Assembly (NCBI GenBank): GCA_029068655.1
Contig: JAIECF010000101.1
Span: 1-32,612 of the forward strand
Reading direction: 5' to 3'
Length of the DNA stretch: 32,612 bases
From: Muribaculaceae bacterium
GTDB lineage: Bacteria > Bacteroidota > Bacteroidia > Bacteroidales > Muribaculaceae
The position numbers were made by a program, and so were the translations under genes. Every line of letters starts with the position of its first letter. Position 1 is the first letter of the stretch. Of the stretch, positions 4,660 through 32,014 are shown one piece after another. The notes beneath the pieces are model-generated. The model had not been told where the DNA came from. It worked only from the letters and a program-made list of their open reading frames with translations, and did no database searches.

Positions 4660-4672
4660 CTACAGACCTCCA

Positions 4673-6213: not shown

Positions 6214-6242
6214 CTCATAAACTGAAAGCACAAAGACTATAT

Positions 6243-7124: not shown

Positions 7125-7125
7125 T

Positions 7126-7153: not shown

Positions 7154-7154
7154 A

Positions 7155-8093: not shown

Positions 8094-8106
8094 TATAGAA
8101 CACAAT

Positions 8107-8793: not shown

Positions 8794-8797
8794 CGCC

Positions 8798-9829: not shown

Positions 9830-9832
9830 ATC

Positions 9833-9867
9833 AATTGATAATTCTCAATGCATAATTCATAATTGTC
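9833..9867. repeat. Heptamer tandem tract after asnA
   Basis: Five 7-base units based on AATTCAT (AATTGAT, AATTCTC, AATGCAT, AATTCAT, AATTGTC, with small register variation) lie just after the asnA stop, between convergent asnA and ung. Confidence 0.75.
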
Positions 9868-9896
9868 TGTTCTGTACTTATCTGTACTGCGCAGCC

Positions 9897-9924
9897 AATT
9901 ATGCATTGTGCATTATGCATTACC
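9897..9924. repeat. Heptamer tandem tract over the ung stop codon
   Basis: Units AATTATG, CATTGTG, CATTATG, CATTACC. The ung stop codon (TAA on the minus strand, plus-strand TTA at 9920-9922) lies inside the last unit. Confidence 0.8.
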
Positions 9925-10588: not shown

Positions 10589-10594
10589 ATCGCT

Positions 10595-11530
10595 TCACAC
10601 CAACTGAATCACGTTCAACTTAAAATCATCCATAGAATACAGCACTATCCCCAGCAAGGTAAGGGTCACTACTATATACTGCCACATGGTGACGGTCCTT
10701 ATCCGGCTTGATACTGCAGTGGGATCTCTATGCATCATGTTGAATACCCATATTGATGAGGCGAGCAGGCAAACGCCGATGATGATTCCTATCCATGGAG
10801 TGACGAAGTCTACAGCCGTAGGTCTTATTATCAGGATCGCGGTGACAAAAGCCGCGTTCGCAAGGTAGACGATACGGGTGAAATGACCACCTTTGCTTGT
10901 CACCAAGGTCTCTTTGCCGTTCATCAGGTCTTCTTCATAGCGAAGATACTGCACCGCGATATGTGCGTTGACGGCCAGAAGACCGATTATGAAGGAATAC
11001 ACTATCACCGGAAGCCACATATGGCTGTGTAGGTTCTGGATCAGTGCAGTTCCGCTGACCGCAATAGGTCCGAAGAAAAGAAATGTGAATATCTGCGACC
11101 ATTTTGTGCGAACCGCCGGTCTAGGACCTGCAAAATAGAAATATAGCAGTACAAGGATCAGAAAGAAATATCCGACTCCGATCCATCCGATAAAGGCGAA
11201 GAGCGACAGTCCCGCCGTGATGGTGAGTATGCCGAATCCGTTGGCAACTATCTTCATCAGAAGCACCTTCGATGAATTCGCTGAACGTGAGGATCGGTCG
11301 TTCATCCCTGAGATGTTTTCCCCGGCACCATAGTAAAGGTCAACGTATCCGTGGTAAAGATTGGCCGAAATCTGAAGAAACAAGGCGAAGATAAGGGTCA
11401 TGATGGCCGGGAACAGGGTGATTCCGCCACGTATCACAGATGCCGTCAGCCCTCCCATCACTGCTCCGGCGCTTATGATCAGCGACGCGGGATGGGCGTT
11501 GTATACAATGGTCTTAGTTATGCTGTTCAT
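10595..11530 (-). CDS. UbiA/MenA-superfamily membrane protein with altered Asp-rich motifs
   Basis: This 311-residue protein has about eight or nine transmembrane helices and a MenA-like layout. In active prenyltransferases the first Asp-rich loop reads NxxNDxxD; here it is NLYHGYVD, losing the central N-D pair. The second loop, normally NNxRDxxxDxxxGKxTL in MenA, is QYLRYEEDLMNGKETL, one residue shorter with the R-D pair changed to R-Y. The GKETLV end and the helices are kept. The protein may have a different substrate, bind Mg2+ differently, or be inactive. It sits in an operon with a YeiH-type transporter upstream and ung downstream. A canonical menA would have to be elsewhere in the genome. 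Confidence 0.7.
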   Translation of the reverse strand: MNSITKTIVYNAHPASLIISAGAVMGGLTASVIRGGITLFPAIMTLIFALFLQISANLYHGYVDLYYGAGENISGMNDRSSRSANSSKVLLMKIVANGFGILTITAGLSLFAFIGWIGVGYFFLILVLLYFYFAGPRPAVRTKWSQIFTFLFFGPIAVSGTALIQNLHSHMWLPVIVYSFIIGLLAVNAHIAVQYLRYEEDLMNGKETLVTSKGGHFTRIVYLANAAFVTAILIIRPTAVDFVTPWIGIIIGVCLLASSIWVFNMMHRDPTAVSSRIRTVTMWQYIVVTLTLLGIVLYSMDDFKLNVIQLV

Positions 11531-16353: not shown

Positions 16354-17556
16354 ATGACATCCGTAAAAATAAAATTCAAGACTTCTTCAATCCCCGACCG
16401 TGAGGGCACGGTCTTCTATCAGATTCTCCACGAACGCAAACAGCGTCAGCTCTTCACGGATTATCATATATTCCCTTCTGAATGGGATGAAAGCCGCTCG
16501 ATGATGATTGTTCCCCATAAAAGCGAACGCAGGTCTTTCATCCTCTCTATCCGTGAACGCATCCGTTGGGATGTGGAGCGTCTCAACAGGATCATTCAGA
16601 AATTAGATAAAGACTCCTTGACATTTACGGTCGATGACATCATAGACGAGTTTAACCGTCACGTCAATGAGTATTCCCTGTTCAACTACATGGAAAGCAT
16701 TATCATAAAACTGAAGCAGAACGGTAAGATCCGCACTTCCGAAACTTACACATCAACCCTCAACAGTTTTAAGAAGTTCCGCAATAACGAAGACCTGATG
16801 CTTGACTGCCTGAATTCAGAGACGATGGAGGCCTTCGAGGCATGGCACCGGCAGAGGGGAGTAGCGCCAAATACAATATCCTTCTATACACGCATCCTCC
16901 GCGCGGCCTACAATCGTGCCGTTGAAGACGGAATCATAGAAGACCGCCATCCATTCCGGCATGTATACACCGGCATAGACAAGACCGTCAAACGAGCCCT
17001 CCCTCTACAGATAATCAGGAAGATCAAGGCTCTCGACCTGTCCCTCATACCGGAACTTGACTTTGCTCGCGACATGTTCATGATGAGCTTCATGCTTCGT
17101 GGTATGAGTTTTATTGACATGGCTTTTCTCCGTAAATCAGATCTCTCGAATGGCCATATCACCTACCGTCGCCGTAAGACCGGTCAGCAGCTTGTCATCC
17201 GGTGGACAAAAGAAATGCAGATGATACTTGACAAATATCCTGAAAACGAGAGTGACTACCTTCTCCCTATCATCCGGAAGTCTGGATCAAACGACCGCTC
17301 CGTATACAGAAACGTAGGCTATAACATAAATCACAATCTGAAACGTATAGCCATAAAACTGGACATTGCCATCCCGCTCACCCTATACGTAGCCCGCCAC
17401 AGCTGGGCATCGGCAGCGAAAGCCAAAGGCATTCCCCTTAGCGTCATCAGTGAGGGTATGGGCCACGACAGCGAAGCCACCACCCAGATCTACCTCGCAA
17501 GCCTCGACACCTCCGTCGTAGACCGCGCCAACTCCATCATCCTCAAAAGCCTATGA
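16354..17556 (+). CDS. Tyrosine recombinase (phage integrase family)
   Basis: This 400-residue site-specific recombinase of the Bacteroidota type has an N-terminal arm-binding-like domain (about 1-90), a SAM-like core-binding domain (about 93-195) and a C-terminal catalytic domain. Catalytic residues are R249 (LRGMSF), K275 (RRKTG), R348-H349 (YVARHS), H371 (GMGH) and the nucleophile Y380 (TQIYL). The first His of the HxxR box is replaced by Y345, which is common in this group. Relatives mobilise integrative elements or invert small DNA segments. The nearest candidate sites are the two 33-base repeats 75 and 273 bases downstream. No transfer or phage genes accompany it, so a local inversion role is plausible but inferred. 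Confidence 0.9.
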   Translation: MTSVKIKFKTSSIPDREGTVFYQILHERKQRQLFTDYHIFPSEWDESRSMMIVPHKSERRSFILSIRERIRWDVERLNRIIQKLDKDSLTFTVDDIIDEFNRHVNEYSLFNYMESIIIKLKQNGKIRTSETYTSTLNSFKKFRNNEDLMLDCLNSETMEAFEAWHRQRGVAPNTISFYTRILRAAYNRAVEDGIIEDRHPFRHVYTGIDKTVKRALPLQIIRKIKALDLSLIPELDFARDMFMMSFMLRGMSFIDMAFLRKSDLSNGHITYRRRKTGQQLVIRWTKEMQMILDKYPENESDYLLPIIRKSGSNDRSVYRNVGYNINHNLKRIAIKLDIAIPLTLYVARHSWASAAKAKGIPLSVISEGMGHDSEATTQIYLASLDTSVVDRANSIILKSL

Positions 17557-17631: not shown

Positions 17632-17664
17632 GCAACCATCCAAATCTCTTGCTAAGAGATACTT
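17632..17664 (+). repeat. Island leader repeat, left copy (core centre GCT)
   Basis: A 33-base unit made of flank GCAACCATCCAA, core ATCTCTTGCTAAGAGAT (17644-17660) and flank ACTT. It matches the right copy at all bases except the three central ones. Confidence 0.9.
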
Positions 17665-17829: not shown

Positions 17830-17862
17830 GCAACCATCCAAATCTCTTAGCAAGAGATACTT
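17830..17862 (+). repeat. Island leader repeat, right copy (core centre AGC)
   Basis: The same 33-base unit in direct orientation, with core ATCTCTTAGCAAGAGAT (17842-17858). This core is the exact reverse complement of the left core, because the arms are palindromic and the centre is reversed. Confidence 0.9.
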
Positions 17863-17909: not shown

Positions 17910-18680
17910 ATGAGATGTAAGAATTGCGGATGGCCCAATAAACCAAACGAAACCAAATGTACGAAATGCGGATCCCCTCTATCCTCAAATGACGATGATT
18001 TCGACATTGCGGGAGCTGTCACAGATAGCGGCTCTGTAAGCCCTCTTAATAAAACGGTACGAGAAGAAGATGTCTTTAATCAAAACAAACCTTACGATCC
18101 AGAACCTCCGGCCTATGGAAGGACTCAAGTTGAGAATCCGGAGCATGTGTCCAATATGGCACAATGTCCCAAGTGCGGATATCCCTTGCGTCCTGGAGTA
18201 GATAAATGCCCTAACTGCAAGTTCCAGATCAGCTCTGCCCATAGACATGATAATCCGGCACCGGATCGACATGGTGATCCGTATGACCTGAATCGAGAGC
18301 CTGCGCGAAGAGCGACCAGGATGGCTTCAGAGCCCGCTCAGAAGCCAAACTTCAGGGGTACCATTAACCCATACATGATGAATCTGGAGATCGAGCCCAC
18401 ATTCATACTGAAGCCTATGAAGCGAATGGAAGAGCGCCGCGATTTCGACGAACAGGAATATGAAGGGAAAGAGGTAGTACTGAATCGCGATAATACTGAG
18501 CCCAACAATCCCTCCATCACTTCCAGACAGCAGGCTGTAATCACAAATGAAGATGGGCGATGGTATATTGAGGACAAGAGCGATCAAAAGACTACTTTCG
18601 TTCGGGCTGGCCAAAAAATAGAGCTCCACGACGGAGATATTATACTCTTAGGAAACCGTCTCTTTGAATTCCGTAAGTAA
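17910..18680 (+). CDS. Two-zinc-ribbon protein with C-terminal FHA-like domain
   Basis: This 256-residue cytoplasmic protein has two CxxC-CxxC zinc ribbons (C3, C6, C17, C20 and C86, C89, C100, C103), a proline-rich charged linker, and an FHA-like domain at about 165-255. In the FHA domain the pThr-binding S205-R206 is kept, but the usual following His is Gln (SRQQA), the early Gly-Arg is Asn-Arg, and the Asn-Gly turn is missing (KTTFVRAG). It may therefore bind phosphothreonine weakly or serve as a scaffold. It opens the island operon, five bases before the first kinase. A role as adaptor or substrate of the kinases is inferred from context. Confidence 0.8.
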   Translation: MRCKNCGWPNKPNETKCTKCGSPLSSNDDDFDIAGAVTDSGSVSPLNKTVREEDVFNQNKPYDPEPPAYGRTQVENPEHVSNMAQCPKCGYPLRPGVDKCPNCKFQISSAHRHDNPAPDRHGDPYDLNREPARRATRMASEPAQKPNFRGTINPYMMNLEIEPTFILKPMKRMEERRDFDEQEYEGKEVVLNRDNTEPNNPSITSRQQAVITNEDGRWYIEDKSDQKTTFVRAGQKIELHDGDIILLGNRLFEFRK

Positions 18681-18685
18681 AAGTC

Positions 18686-19978
18686 ATGGCTGAAGTCGCA
18701 CAAAGATGTAGTTTTTCCATTGGGGATCTTGTCGACGGGCGCTTTCAGGTGAAGAAGATACTTGGAGAGGGCTCTTTCGGTAAGGTCTACGCTGTACAAG
18801 ATTACAACGGCCAGACTTATGCGCTAAAATTACTGAAACTCTGGGAAGTGCCTTCGGAAATACGCCAGTCGTTGGTTGATCGCTTCGATATGGAATTTGA
18901 GACAGGGAGGATAGAAAGTAATTATCTGGTGCATTCCATTTCACATGGTTTTGTGGCTGGCAATCCCTATATAGTCATGGAATACTGCCCCAACGGGGAT
19001 CTGCTTTCACTATCAAACAATTCAAACGTTGACCTCTCAAAAGCCGCCACGCATATATTATGTGGTTTGAAAGCGCTGCATGGGAGGGGAAAGGTGCATC
19101 GAGATCTAAAACCTGAAAACGTTCTGGTGAAACGAAACGGAGATTTCGCCCTGACTGATTTCGGTATATCAGGTGACAGAAACAAGAGAATGACCGAGAG
19201 GAATATTCTCGGAAAGCCCAAACAGATTTTCGGTACTTATGCCTATATGCCTCCGGAACAGCTTAAACCTAACAAAGACGCTACAGTTCTTCCTACCACC
19301 GATATTTTCTCTTTCGGAGTCATGATGTTTCAGCTTCTGACGGGGGATCTGCCTTTCGGACCTCTTGAGTCAGAGCGTGAGCTTATACAGTATATGAAGA
19401 GGGGAAAGAATGGCGATTGGGACAGACATGTGCTTGGGAAATCGCAGCAGATGAGACAGTGGGAGGCTCTGCTTGAGGGATGTCTGACACCAAACTATCA
19501 GCATCGGCTTCAGACTACCGACGAAGTACTTCGGCTTGTGCCACAGAGCCGTGAGGCACAGCGAGAAGTGAAGGAAGAGATAACGGACTATCAGACAAGA
19601 ATCGTAAATGGCGTCCTACTCAGGATAATGCAAGGCGAAGATTACGGCCGTGTATATTATCTTGACAATCTGTTGAGAGGAAACTCAGCAGTTCTGAGCA
19701 TGGGCAGAAGAGACGAAGGTGTCTATAACGACATAGCCATTATTGAAAACGACAGCAGCTATATATCTCGAAAACACTGTACGCTGGAGCTTGATTATGA
19801 AATAGGGTCATGGATTATCCGCGACGGCCAATGGGACAGATACGACACAGGGGGATGGCGACGCTCGACCAACGGTACGTATGTCAACTCTAAGGAAGTC
19901 ACCGTAAGCGGTCTGGCATTCAGTCCGGGTGACATAATATCGATCGGAGACACAAAACTAAGGGCAGAGGCCTACTAA
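18686..19978 (+). CDS. Ser/Thr protein kinase with C-terminal FHA domain
   Basis: This 430-residue cytoplasmic Hanks-type kinase has all core motifs: glycine loop GEGSFGKV (27-34), K48, HRDLKPEN with catalytic D140, DFG (158-160) and an APE-like PPE (189-191). The kinase domain ends near 290. An FHA domain (about 310-430) follows, with GR (340-341), SRKH (361-364) and STNGTYVN (394-401), all intact, so it should bind phosphothreonine. No transmembrane helix is seen. It is the only RD-type kinase of the island; the two membrane kinases have HQD. Self-recruitment to phosphorylated partners through the FHA domain is the expected mode. Confidence 0.92.
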   Translation: MAEVAQRCSFSIGDLVDGRFQVKKILGEGSFGKVYAVQDYNGQTYALKLLKLWEVPSEIRQSLVDRFDMEFETGRIESNYLVHSISHGFVAGNPYIVMEYCPNGDLLSLSNNSNVDLSKAATHILCGLKALHGRGKVHRDLKPENVLVKRNGDFALTDFGISGDRNKRMTERNILGKPKQIFGTYAYMPPEQLKPNKDATVLPTTDIFSFGVMMFQLLTGDLPFGPLESERELIQYMKRGKNGDWDRHVLGKSQQMRQWEALLEGCLTPNYQHRLQTTDEVLRLVPQSREAQREVKEEITDYQTRIVNGVLLRIMQGEDYGRVYYLDNLLRGNSAVLSMGRRDEGVYNDIAIIENDSSYISRKHCTLELDYEIGSWIIRDGQWDRYDTGGWRRSTNGTYVNSKEVTVSGLAFSPGDIISIGDTKLRAEAY

Positions 19979-20021
19979 AAAATGATAACTGATAAATACG
20001 ACTAACTAAAAAACGTATAAA

Positions 20022-21545
20022 ATGGCCAACAAAACGACACAGCCATATAAAAAAACGCTTTCCGGATCAATTGGAGCCGGAATGGGTTCGCTTTTCGCAC
20101 CAGGCGGAAAGAAATATTATATCTTAGAGCATAAGGTATCAAGTAAATATCACAAGGCCGGTGAGTCACAGGAAATTATCGTTGATAATATCGAACTTGG
20201 ACGGGATTCGCACTGTCAGGTGCGTTTTGACGAAAGCTTTAAGACCGTCTCGCGCCGCCACGCGGCCATTGTCAAGGACGGTGACATGTGGAAGCTTGTA
20301 CCGCTCTCTAAAACCAATACGACATTCCTCAACGGTCGCCCGGTAAAAGAAGAGTGGTACCTGCAGAACGGGGATGAGATACAGCTTTCGGTCAATGGTC
20401 CGAAGATGGGTTTCATCACACCTACCGGCAAGAAGTCGACTGTTGGTTCCATAGGCCTTACACGCCGACTGAGTCTATTCCGCCAGCAGGCCTTGCGCCC
20501 ATATAAGACAGCTATAATCTGCCTGTCAGTAGTACTTGTACTTGCAGTTGGTGGATTAGGCACATGGAGCTATCTGAAAGGTCAGGAATATGAAAGCTTG
20601 ATCGCTAACGCGCAGAAAAGACTGGATTCTCTTAAGTCCAAAAATTCTGAGCTGGAGCAACTCATAGCTGATGCAGCAAAAGAACAGCACAGATTGGATT
20701 CATTACTTAAAATCAAACAGCGTCCTGTACATAAAACTGTAGTCGTACATAGTAACGATGGTAATAATGGTGGTGGAAATGTCTCTAATCTTCAGAAACA
20801 TGAGGATGATATTTTCAAGATCATGACTGCCATGTTTGTTGAGTATCAGGGTCAGAGAATTCCGTTGGAGACCGTCAATGGCGGTATATTAGGATGGAGC
20901 GGAACAGGATATCTTTTAACTGATGGCAGATTTGTAACAGCTAAACACTGTGTAGAAGGATGGAAGTTCAACAGTGTCGAGGAATTGAACGAGCAACTTG
21001 ACATGTTGAAGGATGAATCCCTCAAGTCTCTATTCATTGCTGGTCTGACAAGGTCAGAAGGAGCAAAGTTAGGCGCTTTGATAGTCGCAAAATCACCTAC
21101 TAAAGAATTAAAGTTCTATTCTAATCAGTTTGTAATGGATCATTCAGACGAAAAAATGGAAGAATTAGATGGGAATTTAAATATCATAGTAGGCTCGTTA
21201 AGAAGTGGAGGAGACTGGGCTTATGCAAAAGCTGGACAAAGCGGGACAATCATTGGAGATGCATCTTTGTCTGCCAATCTCCCTGCAGGAGCAAGATTAG
21301 AAGTGTTAGGCTATCCTCGCGGAGATTCAGCAAAAAGCGGATCCTGTCTATACGGATCCTGCCAGACAGCAGAAAGAGGCCTGAATAACGGACTAATAAC
21401 AATATCGGCACGGAATTTTGAACAAGGAAATTCAGGTGGCCCCGTATTTTATAATGATAAGGGCACATATAAAGCAATAGGAATTGTTTCTATGGGTACA
21501 GGAGCCACTCGTGGAGGCCTAATACCAATCGCTAACCTTAGATAA
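20022..21545 (+). CDS. FHA - transmembrane - trypsin-like serine protease
   Basis: This 507-residue single-pass protein has a cytoplasmic FHA domain (about 32-130; GR 60-61, SRRH 77-80, FLNG 102-105), a transmembrane helix (about 162-186), a coiled coil (about 187-232), a Gly/Asn linker, and a chymotrypsin-fold protease (about 260-507). The catalytic triad is visible as H309 (TAKHC), D398 (GGDWA) and S471 (QGNSGGP). A positive-inside reading puts the protease in the periplasm, controlled across the membrane by phosphothreonine binding inside. Base composition changes within the gene: one FHA-coding line (20221-20280) has 35 of 60 G+C, one protease-coding line (21121-21180) only 18 of 60. The domain pair may be a recent fusion. 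Confidence 0.88.
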   Translation: MANKTTQPYKKTLSGSIGAGMGSLFAPGGKKYYILEHKVSSKYHKAGESQEIIVDNIELGRDSHCQVRFDESFKTVSRRHAAIVKDGDMWKLVPLSKTNTTFLNGRPVKEEWYLQNGDEIQLSVNGPKMGFITPTGKKSTVGSIGLTRRLSLFRQQALRPYKTAIICLSVVLVLAVGGLGTWSYLKGQEYESLIANAQKRLDSLKSKNSELEQLIADAAKEQHRLDSLLKIKQRPVHKTVVVHSNDGNNGGGNVSNLQKHEDDIFKIMTAMFVEYQGQRIPLETVNGGILGWSGTGYLLTDGRFVTAKHCVEGWKFNSVEELNEQLDMLKDESLKSLFIAGLTRSEGAKLGALIVAKSPTKELKFYSNQFVMDHSDEKMEELDGNLNIIVGSLRSGGDWAYAKAGQSGTIIGDASLSANLPAGARLEVLGYPRGDSAKSGSCLYGSCQTAERGLNNGLITISARNFEQGNSGGPVFYNDKGTYKAIGIVSMGTGATRGGLIPIANLR

Positions 21546-21551
21546 AAGAAT

Positions 21552-22484
21552 ATGAAAGATTTACGAATAATAGGATTTTCAGTATTACTGTTATTACTAC
21601 CATTAACAATAAACTCCCAATTAATAGGATCAATCCAATTCGATCCGAGTGACTTCTCTATGCCTGACAGGGTAGACGGATTCCAGGATACATTTGAAGA
21701 AACTTTGACACCAGGAATCTTTATCGTAAAAACAGGTTTTCAAATCTGTAATAAAGAATCTGGAGAGTTATTCGGTCTAAACGGGAAAGACGAGTTTGGG
21801 GAAATCTATGGAATCGGAGTAAAGACAACTGACGGCATACTCCTTTATGATAAATCAGTAAGACCTTGGAGATATAATCAAAAGTTCGGCAAATATATGG
21901 AAAAATATGACCCGATCTTCACACAGCCTATGTATAGAACCATGTCTGCAAATTCTCAATTGACCTCCTTAGAATTCGACATAGCTACAGGAATCACGCT
22001 GGTTGATTCGACTCTCTATAAATTTGACAGTCCAACATTTGACAAAGATGGATTCAAACTAAACAATGATACAGGCAAGCTAACAGGATGGATTGTATGG
22101 ATCATCGCAAAAGATACCGATAATCTTGGATATGAAGATAAAATTGACTTCAATATCTCTCGACAGGAATGGGATATTTCTGACAGGGGATACGTCGTTG
22201 ACATTGAACAGCCGAACACTGAACTACAAATATTAGGTGGTATCTTTTTAGTGCCAAAGGTAAACGGGCCAGGGGCACTACAATTCAGCATCAGTGGCAT
22301 AGCAGTACCTATCAATGAAAAATGGACTTTGGCCTTCCCTGATTGGTGTGTCCAGAATGAAAAAGAAGTAAAGCCACATCCTCAAGTTGAAGAGAATAAT
22401 GTAGATGGAATAGAGCTTACTCCAATAAATAAAGAGAAAGGGAAAAGCAAGCCCAAGAAAGACGATAAAAAGAAGAAAAGATGA
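21552..22484 (+). CDS. Secreted protein of unknown function, Lys-rich tail
   Basis: I do not recognise this 310-residue protein. It has a signal peptide (about 1-22, cut near INSQ), a mainly beta-type globular region, and a strongly basic C-terminal tail of about 20 residues (KGKSKPKKDDKKKK). No catalytic motif is evident. It starts six bases after the protease gene and its stop overlaps the start of the phosphatase gene (ATGA at 22481), so translation is coupled. Its AT-rich composition (19 of 60 G+C in 21841-21900) matches the protease half of the preceding gene, so the two may have entered together. It is a candidate substrate or regulator of that protease. Confidence 0.75.
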   Translation: MKDLRIIGFSVLLLLLPLTINSQLIGSIQFDPSDFSMPDRVDGFQDTFEETLTPGIFIVKTGFQICNKESGELFGLNGKDEFGEIYGIGVKTTDGILLYDKSVRPWRYNQKFGKYMEKYDPIFTQPMYRTMSANSQLTSLEFDIATGITLVDSTLYKFDSPTFDKDGFKLNNDTGKLTGWIVWIIAKDTDNLGYEDKIDFNISRQEWDISDRGYVVDIEQPNTELQILGGIFLVPKVNGPGALQFSISGIAVPINEKWTLAFPDWCVQNEKEVKPHPQVEENNVDGIELTPINKEKGKSKPKKDDKKKKR

Positions 22485-23980
22485 GCAATATACAATTCAG
22501 AATTGCGGCGAAGACTGATGTCGGACTCGTAAGAACCAATAATGAAGATAATTTCCAGGCATCATCTGATCTTTCAAAGAATCAGATGAGATGGATCAAC
22601 AATGAAGTCTGCTCTTTAGGAGATAAGGGAGCTCTCATAGTGGTAGCCGACGGAATGGGAGGCATGAATGCCGGAGAAGTCGCTTCTGAATTGGCTATAG
22701 AGACCGTCAGAGAATACTTCTCGCTTGAAAATCTCACGGCAGACGTGATGAAGACACGCTATTCCATAGAGAAATTCATGAATGAAGTCATCGTGGCAGC
22801 CGATGCAAGAATAAAGGAAGAGGCTCGCCGGAATCCTGAGACCAAAGGGATGGGTACGACGATTGTTATCGGATGGATTCTTGACGGAAAACTCTATGTC
22901 TCCTGGTGTGGCGACAGCCGAGCATATGTATACAATCCGGCTGCAGGTCTTCACCAGATAACAAAAGACCATTCATATGTGCAGGGATTAGTGGATAAGG
23001 GATCCATTACAAGGGAAGAGGCTTTTGATTTTCCAGACAGCAATATAATAACACGTTGTCTAAGTGATTCGACAGCCAAAGCGAAACCGGAATCTCTGCT
23101 TAAGCCATATGACCTTTGCGACGGAGACATAATTCTGCTTTGCACTGATGGCCTTAGCGGAATGATTCGGGATTCCGAGATGGAAGCCATAATAAGGGCT
23201 AACGAGCAGGATATGGATGTTCTTGTCGATGAACTTATCAAAGTGGCCTGCGAAGCAGAAGGTTCTGACAACATCACTATTTGCATCTGCCAGATACTCC
23301 GGGGAGCCTCCCAATGCAAGCCGGAAGTGTTCACGGACTATGACAAAAGAAACAATGGCAATCAAACAGGTTTCATAAAGACGATCATCAATAAGCAGGA
23401 GGACATATCAGGCAAAAGACGAGGTTGGCTCTATATCTTGCTGGCATGTGTAGCCCTTGCTCTTATAGGAATCTGCGTATGGTGGTTTTTCCTTAAGGAA
23501 AAAGGTGACAAGAATATTCAACAAAACATTCCTGAGGCCATTGAAATGCAAGATGCTCCTATGGACGTCCAGACTGAGGATGCCTCAATTCAGAGCGAGA
23601 GTGCCGATTCAAATGATGAGTCACAGTCTGATGCCATAGTTGACGCTGTGCCTTCAACAAATCAACAAACCTCCCAGAAAGGAAAAGGCAAGACTGGATC
23701 CAGCGGCTCAGTTTTCGATGGCCCGAAACAGGAAAGTCCCAAGGAGCAAGCTACTGACAAAGATGAAGACGAGCTTACCTTGATTGGAAACATCGAGGAT
23801 CCTAAACCCGCCAAGCAACAGGAAGAAGAAGCAACGCCTGTCTATCAGGATTACATGGTAAAACGCGGAGACACATACTCCAAACTTGCCAAGAGATTCA
23901 ACACAGATGTGGAAACACTGCAGAAAATCAACAACGGCAAGGACCTTAAGGAAGGAGACACCATTAAAGTACCAAAATGA
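22481..23980 (+). CDS. PP2C-type phosphatase - transmembrane - LysM protein
   Basis: This 499-residue protein has a cytoplasmic PP2C domain (about 5-275) with the Mn/Mg ligands in place: NED (21-23), VADGMGG (55-61), GDSR (144-147), TDGLSG (222-227) and GSDN (261-264). A transmembrane helix follows (about 315-338), then a long acidic Ser/Gln-rich linker and a C-terminal LysM domain (about 456-499, VKRGDTYSKLAKRFNT...). LysM binds peptidoglycan-type GlcNAc chains, so the phosphatase is probably tethered to, or senses, the cell wall. It should reverse the action of the island kinases. Confidence 0.93.
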   Translation: MSNIQFRIAAKTDVGLVRTNNEDNFQASSDLSKNQMRWINNEVCSLGDKGALIVVADGMGGMNAGEVASELAIETVREYFSLENLTADVMKTRYSIEKFMNEVIVAADARIKEEARRNPETKGMGTTIVIGWILDGKLYVSWCGDSRAYVYNPAAGLHQITKDHSYVQGLVDKGSITREEAFDFPDSNIITRCLSDSTAKAKPESLLKPYDLCDGDIILLCTDGLSGMIRDSEMEAIIRANEQDMDVLVDELIKVACEAEGSDNITICICQILRGASQCKPEVFTDYDKRNNGNQTGFIKTIINKQEDISGKRRGWLYILLACVALALIGICVWWFFLKEKGDKNIQQNIPEAIEMQDAPMDVQTEDASIQSESADSNDESQSDAIVDAVPSTNQQTSQKGKGKTGSSGSVFDGPKQESPKEQATDKDEDELTLIGNIEDPKPAKQQEEEATPVYQDYMVKRGDTYSKLAKRFNTDVETLQKINNGKDLKEGDTIKVPK

Positions 23981-23986
23981 AAGCTT

Positions 23987-24799
23987 ATGAACGGAAACAG
24001 AATAACCATTGGAAGAGACCCGCGCAATGATATCCGTATAGATGACCGCTGGGATACAGTAAGCAACCGTCATGGCGAGATTTCATACTCCGGAGGACAG
24101 CTTTCATTCACGGACCACAGCACCAACGGCACCGTCATTAACGGACAGAAGATACAAAACATGACAGTCGGCATATACCGAGGCGACAGCATACGCCTTG
24201 CAAACGCCTTCGAACTGGAATGGAGCGTCATCGAGCGCTTCTTCCCGGAAATGAACCGTCCGACAGTAACACGCAACGTAAGAGGTGAAAGTCAGAATGC
24301 AGGAAGGCATACCATGCATATTAATGTACGCGAACAGGGTTTGTCAGGATTAAAGACATCTGACTCAAAGCAGGGGCGGGCTACTGAAAAATTCGACCCG
24401 CAACAGTCAAAGCTACATGAGGAACATACCCATGCAGGAAGCTATAATTTCGGTATCGCTAATGAATACTCACAATCAGAAATAGACCAGCAGCTTGAGA
24501 AATGGAATTGGGGCGCTTTCTTCTGCAGCTGGCTATGGGGTGCATTCAACGGTGTATTCTGGCCGCTCTTCATAATAGCAGTCTCAGGTATACCCTATCT
24601 TGGTCAGATAGCAGAACTATGCCTGTGTGTCTATCTTGGCATGAATGGATCAAAGATGGCCTGGAGATCAGGGAAAAACCAGAATTTCGAGAGATTCTTG
24701 AAGTCTCAGCGCATCTGGGCCATCATAGGAGTCTTATGGTTTGCACTGACCGTCGCAGTTAATGTTTTCCTTCTTAAATACACTTTATCACTTATTTAA
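23987..24799 (+). CDS. FHA domain fused to a DUF2628-like multi-helix membrane domain
   Basis: This 270-residue protein has an N-terminal FHA domain (GR 9-10, SNRH 26-29, STNGT 45-49), slightly short because only eight residues precede the Gly-Arg. A polar linker (about 85-165) leads to a membrane domain opening WNWGAFFCSWLWG, typical of DUF2628-like proteins, with about three helices (roughly 176-200, 203-220, 243-265). The ATG at 23987 is six bases after the phosphatase stop. An ATG overlapping that stop (23977) is in another frame and is not used. It probably recruits phosphorylated partners to the membrane. Confidence 0.82.
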   Translation: MNGNRITIGRDPRNDIRIDDRWDTVSNRHGEISYSGGQLSFTDHSTNGTVINGQKIQNMTVGIYRGDSIRLANAFELEWSVIERFFPEMNRPTVTRNVRGESQNAGRHTMHINVREQGLSGLKTSDSKQGRATEKFDPQQSKLHEEHTHAGSYNFGIANEYSQSEIDQQLEKWNWGAFFCSWLWGAFNGVFWPLFIIAVSGIPYLGQIAELCLCVYLGMNGSKMAWRSGKNQNFERFLKSQRIWAIIGVLWFALTVAVNVFLLKYTLSLI

Positions 24800-24835
24800 A
24801 AAGCCAAACCAACAACATCATAAAATCTGTCAAAC

Positions 24836-27800
24836 ATGTCTGAACTTCATAAAGGACAATTATTCCACAACAGGTACATTTTAGTCAGGGCTCTCGGACA
24901 AGGAGCTTCAGCTGAGGTATGGATGGCACGTGACACTCGCGCCAACAACCTACTTGTGGCATTGAAGATATTCTCCCAGAACTCCGGAATGGACTCTTCC
25001 GGCATGCAGGATTTCGAGAGGGAATTCACTACAGTCTACAACATGAAGCACTCCAACCTGCTTCCTCCTACGGGTTACGACATATGCAACGGGCGACCAT
25101 ACCTAGTCATGCAATACTGTGAGAACGGATCGTGCAACGGAATGGCCGGAAGAATGGAGGAAGAAGACATTATAAAGTTTCTCCACGATGTATCAGCAGG
25201 ACTTGAATACCTCCATGACCATAACATAATACATCAGGACATCAAACCCGACAACATTCTGCTTGACGACAACTGCAACTTCATGGTGACTGACTTCGGA
25301 ATAAGCGTGAATTCCGATGGCGGCCTATTCAATTCCAATGGAATGTCAGGAGGCACACGCGCTTACATGGGACCCGAACGATTTGAGGGAATTACCAACA
25401 GTGCATCAGACATGTGGTCGCTCGGAGCTACTGCAGTGGAGCTATTGACGGGCAATCCACCGTACGGCGATCATGGAGGTCTTTTGCAGGCTGAAGGTGA
25501 GCCACTTCCAGAACTTCCTAAACTACAGCCAGAGGTTAAGGACATGATCATGTCATGTCTTGCTAAGGATCCAGCCAAACGAATCAAGGCAAATGAAATA
25601 CGTCAGAAAATCGACCTCTATCAGGAGACCGGGTCATGGGAAAAGAATTCTCAAAAGAAAATAATAGCAATTGTTGCTACCGGAGTAATCAGTGTTCTGA
25701 TGTGTCTTGGAATCTTCCTGTGGGACTATAACCGCACGAAGGTGTATTACTATAAAGACTACGCTGAATTCTGGGGAGTTCCTCATGGAATTGGCCGCCT
25801 AAGCAGCAACGAAATGGCACATAGGGAACTGAGCTACAGGTTCGAATATAACAAGCATAAGCTACGCCGCGTATCGCTGGTAAATTCAAAGGGAAAGGTG
25901 ATTGATCACACTGATACCGAACTGAAGAACAGCCGCTATGCAGACGTTCAGTATTTCTATACTGATAACGGCAATATCGACTATACCTTCATATCCGACC
26001 CGAACGGGCGCGTTCTCTTCAAGATGGACTACGATGACAATCTGAAGACCGCCACATTCCGTCAGAACGATGAGTACGGCACGGAAATGAACCTCTATGC
26101 CAATACTAACGTGCTCTATAAGTACGGCTTTTCAGCAATGGACGAGAAAAGCCGTATCTCACGTTATCTCCTCACATATGATGAAGACGGCTTGCTGAAA
26201 GAACGCCGCTATGTTGGCCTTCAGAATGTACCGGCATGTGACAAAGACAATATCTATGGTTCCCGCTATAAATACGATCACAAAGGGCGTAAAATCGAGG
26301 AAGCGTATATAGGTGCGGACGGCAACATTACGAGCAATTCAGACGGTATGGCCATTCGACGATACACCTATGATGATAACGACAACTGGGACAGCGTCAC
26401 TTACCTCAACTCAGACGGAGAAGGATCGCATGACGGGAATAACTGCAGTGTGGTCCGGATAGGATACGACGATTATGGCAACCGCATATCGGAAATGTAC
26501 TATACTCTGGAAGGAGAGCCCTCAATTCGCACCGACTGCAAAGCCGCCGGATTCAGATATGAAATCGATAATGAAGGGAACAGAACAGGACAAATTTATT
26601 TAGGGGTTGACGGTAATCCGACATACAGCGATGCTGGAATTGTCAAGGTTTCAGACCGTCATGATGAAAACGGCTTCATTGTGGAGCGCACATTCCTGGA
26701 TGAAAACGGGTCCCCGACACTATATTCTAAAGACGGAGAAACCTACGGGAAAATAATATATAAAGTGGGAGAGACCGGATTACCGTTAGAAATCAGTATC
26801 TATGATGAGTACGGCAATCCTACGGAAGATGACAAAGGGGGATTCAAGTATGTGAGTACCTATGATGCGAACGGTAATATAACCAGTCAGAAGACTTTCG
26901 ACAAAGACGAGTCTCCAACTCTCTCAAATGGATTCTATCATGAATGCAGATGGGAATATGATGAACACAACAACCTCATCAAGGAAAGCTACTTCGATAT
27001 AGAAGGGAATCCAACCACCTGCGACGGAAGAATTTCTACATTCGGCATGGAGTACAACCGCCAGGGGGCAATGACAAAAATGAGTTATCTCGGTAAAGAC
27101 GGCAGACCCATCTCCGGGGATGCTCTATATTCTGGCTATGTCATTGAATATGATGAATTAGGCAATCAGAAGACTTTTCAATATGTAGATACTCAAAACA
27201 AGCCGACTATGTCGAGCTACGGCTATTCAAAGATTGAATATGTCTATGACCCGAAGACCAACTTCCTCACTGAAATCAAGGACTACAACACGACCGGAAG
27301 ACTCGTATATGACATTCACAGGAAATTTGACAGCCGTGGCAATATAGTGGAGGCATACACCCTGGTAGATGGTAAGCTAAAACCCGGATCAGCGGTAGAA
27401 CACTCTGAATACGATGCCAATAACAGAGAGACCTCCCAATGGGTGAGCGATCTGTCCGGCAAGAAAATCAATTACCCAGGTAAGGCATACTCGCTCGTAA
27501 GACACGAATATGACCATATGGGCAACTGCATATCATCCACCTATTGGAAGGCCGACGGCACCCCTGGGACAGACGAGCAGAAATCGCATAGACGCGTAAG
27601 AACATTTGATGCCATGAACCGAGTCATCTCTGAACTCAACTACGGCGTAGATGGGAAACCATTATCGGGAAGCAACGTAAATCCTGAAGGCCGCGTCAAG
27701 TATGACCAATGGGGAAATATGGCTGAAATCTCATGTTATGACGGCTACGGAAATCCACGCCTCTCATCTGACGGATTCTTCGCATCTCGTGCGGTTTACG

Positions 27801-28180
27801 ACAGAAGAGGCAATGTGCTCAAACAGGAATTTGTAGGAGTCGACGGAAATCCGGTATGCAGCAAGAACAATGGATATGCAAAAGCCGAACACACCTATGA
27901 CCAGCACGGCAACCAGCTCGAATCAAAATATTACGACACGACTAAGTGCATTCGAGTAGAACAATTCAAGTATAATGATAAGAATCGCCTTACAGAGCAG
28001 AGAGTGTGTGATGCAAATGGCAAGCTTACCGACCAGTTCTATGGAGTAAGCAGAGTAAAGATAGACTATGATGAAGATGACACAACTCCTAAGAAACGCA
28101 GTTATTATACTCAAACAGGAGCCGTGCTTGGCTCACAGACATGGAATAAAACAAAAGGAGAATGGAACGATATAAGATAG
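24836..28180 (+). CDS. Receptor-like Ser/Thr kinase with long YD-type repeat ectodomain
   Basis: This 1114-residue protein has an N-terminal kinase domain (about 10-262; GQGASAEV 21-28, K44, catalytic HQD 133-135, DFG 153-155, PE 180-181), a transmembrane helix (about 274-297), and some 800 extracytoplasmic residues. From about 330 to 1100 the ectodomain is a tandem repeat with a period close to 32 residues and the pattern YDxxGNxxxxxYxxxDGxP. About sixteen units are clear and a few degenerate ones lie near the membrane. The pattern resembles RHS/YD repeats but with a longer period. HQD in place of HRD marks a non-RD kinase. It is probably a sensor of an envelope or extracellular ligand; the ligand is unknown. 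Confidence 0.85.
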   Translation: MSELHKGQLFHNRYILVRALGQGASAEVWMARDTRANNLLVALKIFSQNSGMDSSGMQDFEREFTTVYNMKHSNLLPPTGYDICNGRPYLVMQYCENGSCNGMAGRMEEEDIIKFLHDVSAGLEYLHDHNIIHQDIKPDNILLDDNCNFMVTDFGISVNSDGGLFNSNGMSGGTRAYMGPERFEGITNSASDMWSLGATAVELLTGNPPYGDHGGLLQAEGEPLPELPKLQPEVKDMIMSCLAKDPAKRIKANEIRQKIDLYQETGSWEKNSQKKIIAIVATGVISVLMCLGIFLWDYNRTKVYYYKDYAEFWGVPHGIGRLSSNEMAHRELSYRFEYNKHKLRRVSLVNSKGKVIDHTDTELKNSRYADVQYFYTDNGNIDYTFISDPNGRVLFKMDYDDNLKTATFRQNDEYGTEMNLYANTNVLYKYGFSAMDEKSRISRYLLTYDEDGLLKERRYVGLQNVPACDKDNIYGSRYKYDHKGRKIEEAYIGADGNITSNSDGMAIRRYTYDDNDNWDSVTYLNSDGEGSHDGNNCSVVRIGYDDYGNRISEMYYTLEGEPSIRTDCKAAGFRYEIDNEGNRTGQIYLGVDGNPTYSDAGIVKVSDRHDENGFIVERTFLDENGSPTLYSKDGETYGKIIYKVGETGLPLEISIYDEYGNPTEDDKGGFKYVSTYDANGNITSQKTFDKDESPTLSNGFYHECRWEYDEHNNLIKESYFDIEGNPTTCDGRISTFGMEYNRQGAMTKMSYLGKDGRPISGDALYSGYVIEYDELGNQKTFQYVDTQNKPTMSSYGYSKIEYVYDPKTNFLTEIKDYNTTGRLVYDIHRKFDSRGNIVEAYTLVDGKLKPGSAVEHSEYDANNRETSQWVSDLSGKKINYPGKAYSLVRHEYDHMGNCISSTYWKADGTPGTDEQKSHRRVRTFDAMNRVISELNYGVDGKPLSGSNVNPEGRVKYDQWGNMAEISCYDGYGNPRLSSDGFFASRAVYDRRGNVLKQEFVGVDGNPVCSKNNGYAKAEHTYDQHGNQLESKYYDTTKCIRVEQFKYNDKNRLTEQRVCDANGKLTDQFYGVSRVKIDYDEDDTTPKKRSYYTQTGAVLGSQTWNKTKGEWNDIR

Positions 28181-28219
28181 GGTTTTATCCTCCGATTCAA
28201 ACGACATAAACAGAAACAG

Positions 28220-29572
28220 ATGGAAGTCAACAATCTATTTAACGACCGGTATTTCCTTGAGAGACTTCTCGGAAGGGGCAACTTCTCTGAAGTGTGGCTC
28301 GCAAAGGATACGAAGACCGATATAAAGGTGGCGTTAAAGATCTATGCCCCGGCCACAGGACTGGACGATGCAGGACTCAATGTGTTCGCACGCGAGTTCT
28401 CTCTTGTGATCAATGCCAATCACAAGAACTTGCTTAAGCCGATGCACTATGATTCATGCGATCGGAAACCCTTCCTCGTGCTTCCTTTCTGCGAGAAAGG
28501 AAGTATCATGAAGGATGTAGGCAAGATGACTGAAGAAGATGCCTGGAGACTGCTGCGTGACGTCGCGAGTGGCCTGGCATGGCTCCACAACATGAATCCA
28601 CCGGTGATCCATCAGGACATCAAGCCTGACAATATCATGGTTGGAGAAAATGGCGATTTCATGATTACTGACTTCGGAGTGAGCACACACGTTAAGTCAA
28701 CACTAAGGAAAAGCATGAGCGCGGCTTTCAGTTCAGCGGGCACCATAGCCTATATGGCACCGGAACGCTTCAGTAAAGACAACACCCCAATCATGGCCAA
28801 TGATATATATTCTTTGGGTGCGACAGTCTATGAGATGCTGACGGGTGACACTCCTTTCGGAGATGATGGTGGTCTTATTCAGATGAAGGGAGCTGAGGTG
28901 CCTGAACTTAAGGGAGATTATTCTAAACAGCTTAAGGAAGTTATATCCCGATGCCTTCGTACCAATCCTTGGGAACGTCCGACTGCTGAACAGCTTGAAA
29001 AATATGCAGAGGATGGTCTAAACGGGCGAAAAATAATGTTTGCAGGAGATAAAACATTCTGGGGAAAATACAAAATGATGATAATTGGTGGTGTAGCACT
29101 CCTTGCATTGGCTGTAATAGTGATAAGCGTAATTTCGTCTAACCGCCGGGAAGAACAACAAGCTGAATTAATGGAGTGCCAGACTAATGCCTACAATGAT
29201 TCTGTCCAATCACTTATGAAATCAGCTATAGCCCGCGGCGACAGCCTTGCAAGAGTGGGGGCCCAGCATGATGAAGCATATGAGGTAGAACTGCTTAAAG
29301 CCTATGGGATATACGGAGATGCAATGGATTATAAACTTAAAGACGGGCAGATACCTGAAGGAGCTTCAGCTCTTGAGGGCAAACGCAAGACTCTGGAATC
29401 ACAATTGTATGAGGCTTACTGCTCCTTTATCGAGAAAGCAGAAATCTTCTCCGATGATGAAGAGATATCCTCAGAATTTAAGGAACGCGCTAAATCCATC
29501 AGCGACGTAATCGACATATCCAAGCTAAAAAAAGACGAAGGCAAGAACACTGACATAAAAACCGAAGAATAA
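28220..29572 (+). CDS. Transmembrane Ser/Thr kinase with helical periplasmic domain
   Basis: This 450-residue protein is a paralogue of the preceding kinase: the kinase domains align throughout (FNDRYFLER.LGRGNFSEVW, K40, HQD 131-133, DFG 151-153, APE 180-182). A transmembrane helix (about 284-307) leads to a 140-residue charged, helical periplasmic part without repeats. Like its neighbour it is non-RD (HQD). The two may form pairs, with this one as the short partner, or respond to different signals. It starts 39 bases after the preceding stop with no promoter seen. Confidence 0.9.
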   Translation: MEVNNLFNDRYFLERLLGRGNFSEVWLAKDTKTDIKVALKIYAPATGLDDAGLNVFAREFSLVINANHKNLLKPMHYDSCDRKPFLVLPFCEKGSIMKDVGKMTEEDAWRLLRDVASGLAWLHNMNPPVIHQDIKPDNIMVGENGDFMITDFGVSTHVKSTLRKSMSAAFSSAGTIAYMAPERFSKDNTPIMANDIYSLGATVYEMLTGDTPFGDDGGLIQMKGAEVPELKGDYSKQLKEVISRCLRTNPWERPTAEQLEKYAEDGLNGRKIMFAGDKTFWGKYKMMIIGGVALLALAVIVISVISSNRREEQQAELMECQTNAYNDSVQSLMKSAIARGDSLARVGAQHDEAYEVELLKAYGIYGDAMDYKLKDGQIPEGASALEGKRKTLESQLYEAYCSFIEKAEIFSDDEEISSEFKERAKSISDVIDISKLKKDEGKNTDIKTEE

Positions 29573-29584
29573 AGACTAGAAAAA

Positions 29585-30205
29585 ATGAAAGGACTAAGAA
29601 TAATCGTCGTTCTTATCGCCGGCTTGATGACACTTTCCGCAAATGCCCAGTCATCATGCGAAAAACTCTATTCGAGTGGCGTGAAATTACAACAGACAAT
29701 GACAGTTGCTTCTCAGAAAAAGGCTATAACTTATTTTGAAAAGGCAAAGGTTTGTTACGATTCCAAAGCGAAGAAAGATCTGTGTGAACAACAGATAAAA
29801 TCGTGCAAAAACATCATCGCTCAATTGTCGAAGAAAGATAAGCAGCCTGCCGCCTCGGGATCATCCAATAAAGAAGAGGGTTCACAATCAGCCACACCAA
29901 ATAATATAAAGGCTGAACCAGCTAAAAAGGATGTGCAACTTTCCATCGACTGCACCTATCTAAAATTCAAGGGCAAAGGAGGCGAGTTCAAGAAAGCAAA
30001 AGTGACATGCAATTATCCTGACTGGAAGATAGCTGAGAAACCGGAATGGGTAAAATGCTCCAAAAATGAGGATGAAATCGTAGTGGAATGTGAAAAGAAT
30101 CCAAGTAAAGACGAACGTTCCGGATCAATCATCATTGAATGCGGCGACAAGAGTGTCACGCTGACTATAATTCAGGAAAAATTCAAAAAATTCGGAGTAA
30201 TCTGA
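29585..30205 (+). CDS. Secreted BACON-domain protein
   Basis: This 206-residue protein has a signal peptide (about 1-22, cut near NAQ-S), an N-terminal helical region with five cysteines (about 25-80), a low-complexity linker (85-115), and a C-terminal BACON-like beta-sandwich (about 116-198; the PDWKIAEKPEWV and SGSIIIECGDKSVTLTIIQE strands are typical). BACON domains occur in secreted Bacteroidota proteins and are thought to bind carbohydrate or mucin, or to act as spacers. It is the last intact gene of the island operon, followed by a strong hairpin. It may be the ligand-side partner of the kinases' ectodomains. Confidence 0.8.
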   Translation: MKGLRIIVVLIAGLMTLSANAQSSCEKLYSSGVKLQQTMTVASQKKAITYFEKAKVCYDSKAKKDLCEQQIKSCKNIIAQLSKKDKQPAASGSSNKEEGSQSATPNNIKAEPAKKDVQLSIDCTYLKFKGKGGEFKKAKVTCNYPDWKIAEKPEWVKCSKNEDEIVVECEKNPSKDERSGSIIIECGDKSVTLTIIQEKFKKFGVI

Positions 30206-30430: not shown

Positions 30431-32014
30431 TCAGTTTTTCTCCATCCTTTCGATCTCATACTGCAGCCCCCGCTCCTCCTTCTTCTCATTGAAATTGGCC
30501 CCGATTAGATACACTGTCCTTGGGTCAAGCGCATATCTCCCGGCATAATCGCGCGAGTGGATCTGCTCCATAGCCTCCTCCACGCTCTTGTCGTACTTGA
30601 ACTCGAACACATATACATAGTCTGTCGTAAGCACCTCCAGGTCGCTTCTTCCCTTGTATGAGTGTCTCTCAGGTATGGCCTCCGTGCCCGAAAGCAGACA
30701 AAGAAGATAAGTGACGGCTCTGTATGTGGATTCCCGATGATCCTCCACCGGCAGATCCTTGAAAAGAGCCTGCAAACGCTCCATGAAAGCATACGGATCC
30801 CCGTAATAAAGATTATCCTTAAATGCCTGGAGGTTGAATCGGCCGTTGATGGCGCTTGTCGCCGGCACGTAAAGCGGCAACAGATTCTGAGCAAAAGCAA
30901 CCTCAACTTCCCTGTTGGGGAAACGCAGTGTATAGATTTGCCTGCGCGCGTCATATGAGTCAATGGTGAGATATCCGGTCTGAAACATCAGCGCGATGAC
31001 ATTGTTGGTCCCGAGTCCGACCGCAATTAGTTCGCTGTAGCTCTGTGTCTGGCCGTTGAGTGATTCCGGGTCTATTCCTTCTTTTCTTATCCGGTTTGCA
31101 AGGAAAGTAGGTGTTCCGGTATCGAACCAGTATGGCAATATAGCCTTTGCTTTCAAAGCCTTGAGTATACTGAAAGGATTATACAGCCGTGATCCATTTG
31201 GGGCGAACAGATAACCGTCATAATACTCCCGCAATTCCTTAATGGTTAGGCTTACCTCTTCAGCCCTGAATTTGGCAAGCTCACGGATGCCGAATTCGAA
31301 ATTATCAGTTAATTCCGCCTCTGTCCAGCCGCAGATATTGGCATAGCCGCTTTCCATAGATATATCGTCGAGATTGTTGAGGTCGCTGAAGATACTTACC
31401 TTGCTGAAGCGTGCCACACCCGTGAGCATTGCGAACTCGATATGGTCATCCATCGACTTCAGGTTTGAGAAGAAACCCTTGAGCATTCTTTGGTTTTTTT
31501 CATAGAGTTCCGGATTTTCCTCAATGCCGAGAAGGGGTTTGTCGTATTCGTCCACAAGAATGACAACTTTCTTGCCTGTGTCTTGATGGATTCCATTGAT
31601 AAGATTCTCAAAGCGTAAAGCAGGATCTGACTCCATACTCGGTAGGATACCGAATCTACCCTCATATGTGGTCAGTGAAGCGGATAGTCTGTTAAGCAAT
31701 CCCTCCGGTTGATCATACTTGCCTGTATTCAGGTCGAAATGAAGCACCGGCCTCGGAGTCCAGTCCATATCCATCTTGTCGATTGCCAGCCCCTTGAACA
31801 GATCGCGTCTGCCATCGAAATAGGCATGGATCGTTGAGAGCAGAAGGCTTTTCCCAAACCGACGGGGGCGGCTCAGGAATACGTATTGAGTTTCCTTCAC
31901 AAGCTTGGCTACAAAAAAAGTCTTGTCAACATATGTATATCCTTCTTCAATGATTTTTTGGAAGGATTGGATTCCGATGGGATATATCCGTCCTCCTATA
32001 GTCTGCTCTGCCAT
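30431..32014 (-). CDS. AAA-ATPase-like protein with C-terminal PD-(D/E)XK nuclease domain (DUF1703 type)
   Basis: This 527-residue protein belongs to the large Bacteroidota family combining an AAA-ATPase-like domain with a PD-(D/E)XK domain. The P-loop-like RPRRFGKSLLLS (49-60, K55) and Walker B-like VILVDEYDKPL (151-161) are clear. The nuclease signature is D458 (GRSDLE), E471 and K473 (FEFK). Members occur in many copies per genome; function is not established, with defence or mobile-element roles suggested. It has its own consensus promoter and is unlikely to belong to the island operon. Confidence 0.88.
   Translation of the reverse strand: MAEQTIGGRIYPIGIQSFQKIIEEGYTYVDKTFFVAKLVKETQYVFLSRPRRFGKSLLLSTIHAYFDGRRDLFKGLAIDKMDMDWTPRPVLHFDLNTGKYDQPEGLLNRLSASLTTYEGRFGILPSMESDPALRFENLINGIHQDTGKKVVILVDEYDKPLLGIEENPELYEKNQRMLKGFFSNLKSMDDHIEFAMLTGVARFSKVSIFSDLNNLDDISMESGYANICGWTEAELTDNFEFGIRELAKFRAEEVSLTIKELREYYDGYLFAPNGSRLYNPFSILKALKAKAILPYWFDTGTPTFLANRIRKEGIDPESLNGQTQSYSELIAVGLGTNNVIALMFQTGYLTIDSYDARRQIYTLRFPNREVEVAFAQNLLPLYVPATSAINGRFNLQAFKDNLYYGDPYAFMERLQALFKDLPVEDHRESTYRAVTYLLCLLSGTEAIPERHSYKGRSDLEVLTTDYVYVFEFKYDKSVEEAMEQIHSRDYAGRYALDPRTVYLIGANFNEKKEERGLQYEIERMEKN

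Follow-up and report, generated by a model that had tools for sequence, protein, structure and literature searches.

The DNA analysed here, referred to as the window, is the entire contig JAIECF010000101.1 (32,612 bases), taken from the draft genome of a Muribaculaceae bacterium (GenBank assembly GCA_029068655.1; 3.6 Mb in 264 contigs). Located at positions 17910-30205 is an island of nine adjacent open reading frames, all on the + strand, which encode the components of a putative phospho-signalling system that spans the cell envelope. The island, with its reading frames, strand, and coordinates, was described in an earlier note and was confirmed here. Its genes, designated G1 to G9, are the following:

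17910..18680, + strand: G1, cytosolic protein with zinc ribbons and a C-terminal FHA domain (Pfam); core gene
18686..19978, + strand: G2, soluble RD-type Hanks kinase with a C-terminal FHA domain (Pfam); core gene
20022..21545, + strand: G3, N-terminal FHA domain (cytosolic), one membrane helix (~residue 158), and C-terminal trypsin-like protease domain (periplasmic), from Pfam and predicted topology; core gene
21552..22484, + strand: G4, secreted; predicted to be a pseudoprotease with the chymotrypsin fold
22481..23980, + strand: G5, cytosolic PP2C phosphatase domain, single membrane helix, and exported tail, with LysM in the window copy (Pfam); core gene
23987..24799, + strand: G6, FHA domain and hydrophobic C-terminal part (Pfam); accessory gene with relatives in a subset of loci
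24836..28180, + strand: G7, receptor-type kinase with a predicted ~800-residue Rhs/YD-like β-repeat ectodomain (Pfam, structural model, Foldseek); accessory form of the receptor kinase
28220..29572, + strand: G8, receptor-type kinase (HQD, non-RD) with an ectodomain of ~150 exported residues (Pfam); core receptor kinase
29585..30205, + strand: G9, secreted protein with a BACON domain (Pfam); belongs to the variable secreted proteins found in such islands

Matches to Pfam placed FHA domains in G1, G2, G3, and G6, protein kinase domains in G2, G7, and G8, PP2C and LysM domains in G5, a trypsin domain in G3, a BACON domain in G9, and zinc ribbons in G1, with no match for G4. The three kinases, one PP2C phosphatase, four FHA domains, and trypsin-like protease read by the earlier note are thus in place. 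The distances between successive genes from G1 to G9, measured from the ends of the reading frames, are 5, 43, and 6 bases, an ATGA overlap, and then 6, 36, 39, and 12 bases. Membrane topology of the window proteins was assigned with a crude hydropathy scan, by which the number of proteins with exported domains, originally put at three, becomes four: in each of G3, G5, G7, and G8 a single hydrophobic helix is predicted to precede an exported portion. A hydrophobic stretch is likewise present in G6.

The island is one copy of a recurrent cluster found mainly in the Bacteroidales. Relatives were gathered by searching a species-level genome collection with an alignment of G3, which yielded 161 encoding stretches, the best 80 of which were used. 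A single-protein query with G5 against genome contigs returned no relative, whereas the G3 alignment did. Names of Bacteroidota are attached to 79 of the 80 stretches; the other (L031) is labelled Clostridia and, because its G7 is 77% identical to that of the window, probably reflects a binning error. Two of the stretches come from records that read as isolates, namely Palleniella intestinalis strain PINT (L027) and Barnesiella sp. An22 (L038). Three loci (L096, L102, and L104) are the same records as L021, L023, and L022, respectively, and were counted once, and L106 was excluded, no G3 reading frame having been called there.

For 42 loci, the window and a paralogous island from the same genome (L009) among them, at least 6 kb of flank is available on either side of G3. 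Within 8 kb of G3 and on the same strand, G1 is present in 42/42 of these, G2 in 41/42, G5 in 42/42, a receptor kinase in 41/42, and G4 in 36/42. With a stricter reading frame filter the corresponding numbers are 41, 41, 42, 41, and 35. The median gaps are 7 bases between G1 and G2, 21.5 between G2 and G3, 10 between G3 and G4, 4 between G4 and G5, and 7 between G5 and the kinase. The order G1-G2-G3-G5, with or without G4 after G3 and with up to four genes inserted between G2 and G3, is observed in 70 of the 84 loci when truncated loci are scored as misses, and the uninterrupted run G1-G2-G3-G4-G5 in 39 of them. The flanks served as the control. Outside the same-strand run the commonest flank cluster is an integrase, present in 6/83 loci including the window, and a Pfam scan of 103 of the 192 flank reading frames revealed no family in more than three, those shown being ordinary chromosomal genes and integrases. 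In most of the 84 loci the same core genes are again found together, which goes beyond chance, and because the order is conserved while the flanks vary, the island is a self-contained unit. The earlier note had proposed such a unit and had named a survey of gene order in Bacteroidales genomes as its check; run here, that survey upheld the proposal. Around the conserved core of six genes (G1 to G5 and a single receptor kinase) lies a variable shell.

The second island of this genome (contig C232, L009) is a diverged copy that contains G1 to G5 and a receptor kinase, followed by a protein with Sel1-type repeats and a further secreted protein. Eight FHA matches were found in the genome: four in the window island, three in the second island, and one in a separate kinase/AAA/PP2C operon. 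That operon (L011, positions 2280-11352) encodes a 1158-residue kinase-like protein, a 1120-residue protein that we take to be a tandem AAA ATPase, a zinc-ribbon FHA protein, a PP2C phosphatase, and a membrane protein.

The active-site residues of the cytosolic components are intact. Among the 78 full-length G2 sequences (of 85), Lys 48 and the HRD and DFG motifs are found in 78/78, and in the FHA domain Arg 341 is retained in 75/78 and Ser 361 in 78/78. Five aspartates, presumably the metal-site residues, are conserved in 78/78 full-length G5 sequences (of 82), and eight cysteines of G1 are invariant in 8/8 sequences. The LysM motif reported earlier for G5 holds for the window but does not extend to the family: the strict motif occurs in 1/82 homologous PP2C proteins, that one being G5 of the window, although degenerate copies may have been missed. 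The tail of a PP2C homologue in L026 somewhat resembles the LysM tail of the window protein. When G8 and G2, the two kinases tested, were compared with the PknB/Stk1 NCBIfam equivalog, they scored 143 and 120 bits, respectively, against the 450 needed, and no PASTA repeats were matched by Pfam in the kinases of the window. Genes of the G6 and G7 types occur together in 9/84 loci. Another island (L060, positions 16453-16968) encodes an FHA domain joined in one protein to a membrane domain of the CD225/dispanin (IFITM-like) type (E 1.8e-19).

In the phospho-regulation of type VI secretion, a Ser/Thr kinase, a PP2C phosphatase, and an FHA protein (PpkA, PppA, and Fha) function as one switch. The earlier note had pointed to this likeness and to the lack of secretion genes, and both observations stand: the same three kinds of domains are present, the FHA domain of G6 weakly matches the TagH model (53.5 bits, 120 needed), and no secretion apparatus was found in the island, the output of which is probably the protease. 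It is nevertheless exceedingly improbable that the island is what remains of a type VI regulon, or a satellite of one. VipB (PF05943) was found in 0/7 island genomes, the Escherichia coli control being positive, and none of the 25 flank families met most often in the 103 reading frames scanned belongs to type VI secretion. A search for TssC (PF17541) gave 0/7 as well, but its controls also gave no match, and the result therefore carries little weight. The link to type VI secretion was rejected on the absence of VipB from all seven genomes.

G3 would be the meeting point of phosphorylation and proteolysis, since a single-pass protein is predicted to hold both the cytosolic FHA domain and the periplasmic protease. 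The putative catalytic triad, from which activity is predicted by sequence, is formed by His 309 (83/84), Asp 398 (84/84), and Ser 471 (83/84). In the FHA domain, Arg 61 is conserved in 83/84 and Ser 77 and Asn 104 each in 84/84, and the predicted topology follows the positive-inside rule in 80/86. An additional 195-residue G3-like piece lies ahead of the full G3 in L034 (position 8145) and L058 (position 3965).

The neighboring protein, G4, has a predicted structure that matches the chymotrypsin fold across most of the domain, with the HtrA family at the top of the fold list. In an alignment of 61 rows (the window sequence and 60 of the 61 listed), serine stands at the aligned position in 0/61, the GxSGG motif is present in 0/61, and any histidine in the aligned stretch is found in 10/61. 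Because the chymotrypsin fold is accompanied by loss of the catalytic serine and of a conserved histidine, G4 is predicted to be a secreted pseudoprotease encoded beside the active-type protease G3.

Membrane-anchored periplasmic serine proteases are known from the DegS/HtrA and Rv3671c types, and HtrA and DegS need a PDZ domain. G3 shares with them a membrane-anchored trypsin-fold domain predicted to face the periplasm, but differs in its cytosolic FHA domain, its pseudoprotease neighbor, and the lack of any Pfam match to PDZ at E 0.01 in a search that did match the trypsin domain. The single-pass protease, together with the fold list of G4, might suggest general envelope quality control of the DegS/HtrA kind, with the protease clearing misfolded proteins and the kinases merely tuning it. 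This explanation is very unlikely: no PDZ domain was matched, and neither the patchy occurrence nor the diversity of the ectodomains nor the dedicated set of FHA, kinase, and PP2C proteins is like housekeeping. An FHA-FHA-trypsin architecture was listed for a single protein of Bacteroides thetaiotaomicron, NP_811686.1, in a 2008 survey (PMC2605481). As in G3, its FHA domains precede the trypsin domain, and the organism belongs to the same bacterial order; the accessible text of that survey mentions no gene cluster or partner.

Of the 94 receptor kinases, 86 were aligned. With the numbering of G8, Lys 44, His 133, Asp 135, Asn 140, Asp 153, and Phe 154 are conserved in 86/86 and the glycine of the DFG motif in 83/86. 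The residue preceding the catalytic aspartate is glutamine in 62, arginine in 15, and histidine in 7 of these, and because glutamine predominates, most of the receptor kinases are non-RD enzymes, unlike G2. The ectodomains are varied. In the 69 of these proteins scanned with Pfam, six contain an FGE-sulfatase domain, TPR, MORN, WG, Sel1, and BACON domains occur in one or two each, and most have no recognized family. YD repeats had been assigned to G7, and here the outcome is divided. The sequence basis is below threshold, with an RHS Pfam match of 20.3 bits against 22 and no other domain matched past the kinase. The predicted ectodomain, on the other hand, displays ~20 β-hairpin repeats, with pLDDT values mostly above 75 from residue 300 except at ~360-370 and 410-440; for the kinase, the model is poor. 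Foldseek locally matched the ectodomain to Rhs/teneurin shells (best E 2.7e-30), but the global superposition is poor, with a TM score of ~0.2.

The secreted shell is also diverse. Secreted proteins that form one loose cluster by single linkage, in a clustering that did not include G9 itself, are represented in 60/83 loci. Among the 73 of the 77 proteins of this cluster that were aligned and scanned, BACON was matched in 27, BACON_2 in 16, an outer membrane β-barrel (OMP barrel) in 8, Sel1 in 7, and WG in 5, with MORN, Lcl_C, TonB_C, and Ig-like domains being rarer. In L105 (positions 1770-9116) there are three tandem paralogous receptor kinases, the FGE-type tips of which share a constant RVLRGG frame and differ at positions scattered around it. 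The FGE-type tips of the kinases in L105, L060, and L045 resemble the variable regions of diversity-generating retroelements. Reverse transcriptase (PF00078), however, was found in 0/3 of the corresponding genomes while 3/14 control genomes were positive, and therefore no such retroelement is claimed.

Some loci contain a further component. Stator-like genes occur in 16/84 loci, where they add one gene or two to the cluster, in most cases between G2 and G3; in 13 loci they immediately precede G3. One of the inserts is a MotA/ExbB homologue (MotA_ExbB domain, E 5.8e-12), and its MotB-like partner, of 270-310 residues, contains one N-terminal helix carrying an aspartate followed by a coiled coil. 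In L089, stator-like MotA/MotB genes likewise lie inside the phospho-island. Two outside-class loci, L123 and L124, both encode the stator pair together with G1, G2, G3, G5, and a receptor kinase, and G4 was detected in neither at E 1e-5. Because these loci have the pair and no G4, they suggest, two in number as they are, that the stator was part of an older form and that G4 was a later addition.

Such proteins are shared with Zorya ZorAB, MotAB, and ExbBD. The resemblance to the ZorA models (E 2e-6 to 1.3e-3) is confined to the membrane part, with no full-length match; the other Zorya genes were not searched for. On the strength of the MotA_ExbB match, the position of the pair before G3, and its presence in both outside-class loci, the cluster might be viewed as controlling an energised machine in the envelope, with the proton channel of the older form lost or replaced in the window copy. 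The pair is absent, however, from 68/84 loci (some of them truncated), including both the window and the second island of its genome, and no further machine genes were recognized. We consider this explanation unlikely.

The surroundings of the island speak to its mobility. The neighboring features are the following:

16354..17556, + strand: tyrosine integrase (Arm-DNA-bind_5, SAM_5, and Phage_integrase by Pfam), immediately before the island and likely responsible for mobility
17632-17664 and 17830-17862, no strand assigned: two 33-base direct repeats, 91% alike, that include an inner palindrome and lie in the AT-rich leader separating the integrase from G1
30431-32014, opposite strand: AAA-ATPase_like/PDDEXK_9 gene (Pfam), directly downstream of the island

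The G+C content of the island is 0.447 as compared to 0.508 to its left, and it falls below that of the flank in 36 of the 49 loci with enough flank, the window included. The distribution is patchy. Counting the present genome, G3 relatives were found in 7/198 genomes of the order, 2/61 of the genus, and, at E 1e-40, 3/394 of a phylum sample; a second genus of the family gave 4/14, one of which was known beforehand. The genome of a sister species (G202) is 85% complete. In it, the protein encoded by the neighboring GH13 gene is 94% identical, homology ends at window base 16065, the island is not at the corresponding site, and the genome gave no G3 match. The G3 of the second island is 97% identical to that of a Muribaculaceae-labelled metagenome-assembled genome (L065), whereas the best relative of the window G3 is 66% identical (L027). 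No clean att site was found, and no listed direct repeat bounds the island. Plasmid records gave no match at E 1e-5 and seven partial ones at E 1, the five listed lying mostly over the FHA part. No match was obtained in phage records, and viral contigs gave one weak match to the FHA region and none with G2 as the query. The patchy occurrence, the linked integrase, the low G+C content, and the absence from this site in the sister species indicate that the island is probably mobile and horizontally spread.

The patchy occurrence and the linked integrase, along with the variable outer parts, would also suit an anti-phage or conflict system, in which the receptor kinases or secreted proteins would detect infection and the cascade or the protease would damage the envelope. 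A comparison can be made with KKP, a three-gene, prophage-linked kinase-kinase-phosphatase module with a cold-shock-domain kinase, described as occurring mainly in Proteobacteria and also in Bacteroidetes (PMC11341870). G2 corresponds to its kinase with a C-terminal FHA domain (PfkB type), G5 to the PP2C phosphatase nearby, and a second kinase adjoins. The three kinases of the window, on the other hand, contain no cold-shock domain (PfkA type; Pfam, E 0.01), and the island adds receptor kinases and a protease in the membrane, as well as a pseudoprotease and secreted proteins. Among the 25 best PADLOC families for each kinase, the top matches were the MADS and PD-T4-6 kinases, a resemblance of kinase domains; full-length matches of window proteins to PADLOC system proteins were not obtained, only partial ones to kinase domains, protease domains, and others. 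Pfam detected no nuclease in the island, and defence families in the scanned flank reading frames are few, the best 25 of 32 families including restriction-modification enzymes, a GlgB-like protein, and the mad2 model with one or two members each. In view of these observations and of the near absence of matches in viral, phage, and plasmid records, a role in conflict is improbable.

The reading that we prefer, to which we assign a probability of roughly one half, is that of a horizontally spread, transmembrane phospho-signalling cluster, the output of which is controlled envelope proteolysis. The receptor kinases G7 and G8, with their interchangeable ectodomains, and secreted partners of the G9 type would meet a signal in the periplasm or at the outer membrane, and the kinases would then phosphorylate cytosolic threonines. 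G2 may amplify this phosphorylation. The FHA domains of G1 and G3 would dock on the phosphorylated sites, thereby gathering or reorienting the single-pass G3 such that its periplasmic trypsin domain is activated or placed. G4, which resembles the protease domain of G3, could act as its partner in the role of a regulator, a substrate adaptor, or a decoy, and G5 would reset the switch. A more elaborate version, in which phosphothreonine/FHA docking switches a protease across the membrane with help from a secreted pseudoprotease, diversifying receptor ectodomains (the tandem FGE-tip paralogues), and an ancestral proton-channel stator, is tentative and somewhat doubtful.

Several points weigh against the signalling proposal. 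One of the 84 G3 proteins has no catalytic serine and one no histidine. The pairing of G3 with G4 is a contact that we infer, and the profile comparison of the two is weak (E 4e-4 with probability 34, and E 0.0011 with probability 20). Moreover, G4 is missing from 6/42 loci and from both outside-class loci and is therefore not indispensable. The positive-inside rule leaves the orientation of G5 undecided (43 in, 34 out), and for the receptor kinases, at 60 in and 28 out, it is weaker than for G3. The correlation among the distance matrices of G1 to G5 (Mantel r 0.46-0.66, p 0.001, for the 60 loci with all five proteins at full length) speaks for the proposal, but shared host ancestry was not removed from this correlation. 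Finally, envelope sensing, the direction of the signal, the ligands, the substrates, and the phosphosites are our inference.

As the earlier note had suspected, no described system with this gene set was found, and searches of open-access papers listed no description of the gene cluster. The cluster is real, recurrent, probably mobile, and, as far as searched, undescribed; it is built from known kinds of parts. For modules of Hanks kinases, PP2C phosphatases, and FHA proteins, the known outputs are mainly cytosolic or belong to secretion machines. The conserved candidate for the output here is a protease in the periplasm that bears an FHA handle and has a pseudoprotease as its neighbor. If the more elaborate version above is true, the cluster would represent a new class of transmembrane signalling, outside-in via the kinases and inside-out via proteolysis, and a bacterial equivalent of a receptor-kinase-to-protease pathway. 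With relatives at hand, two of them in records that read as isolates, the way in which phosphorylation inside the cell might control envelope proteolysis becomes directly testable in gut commensals.

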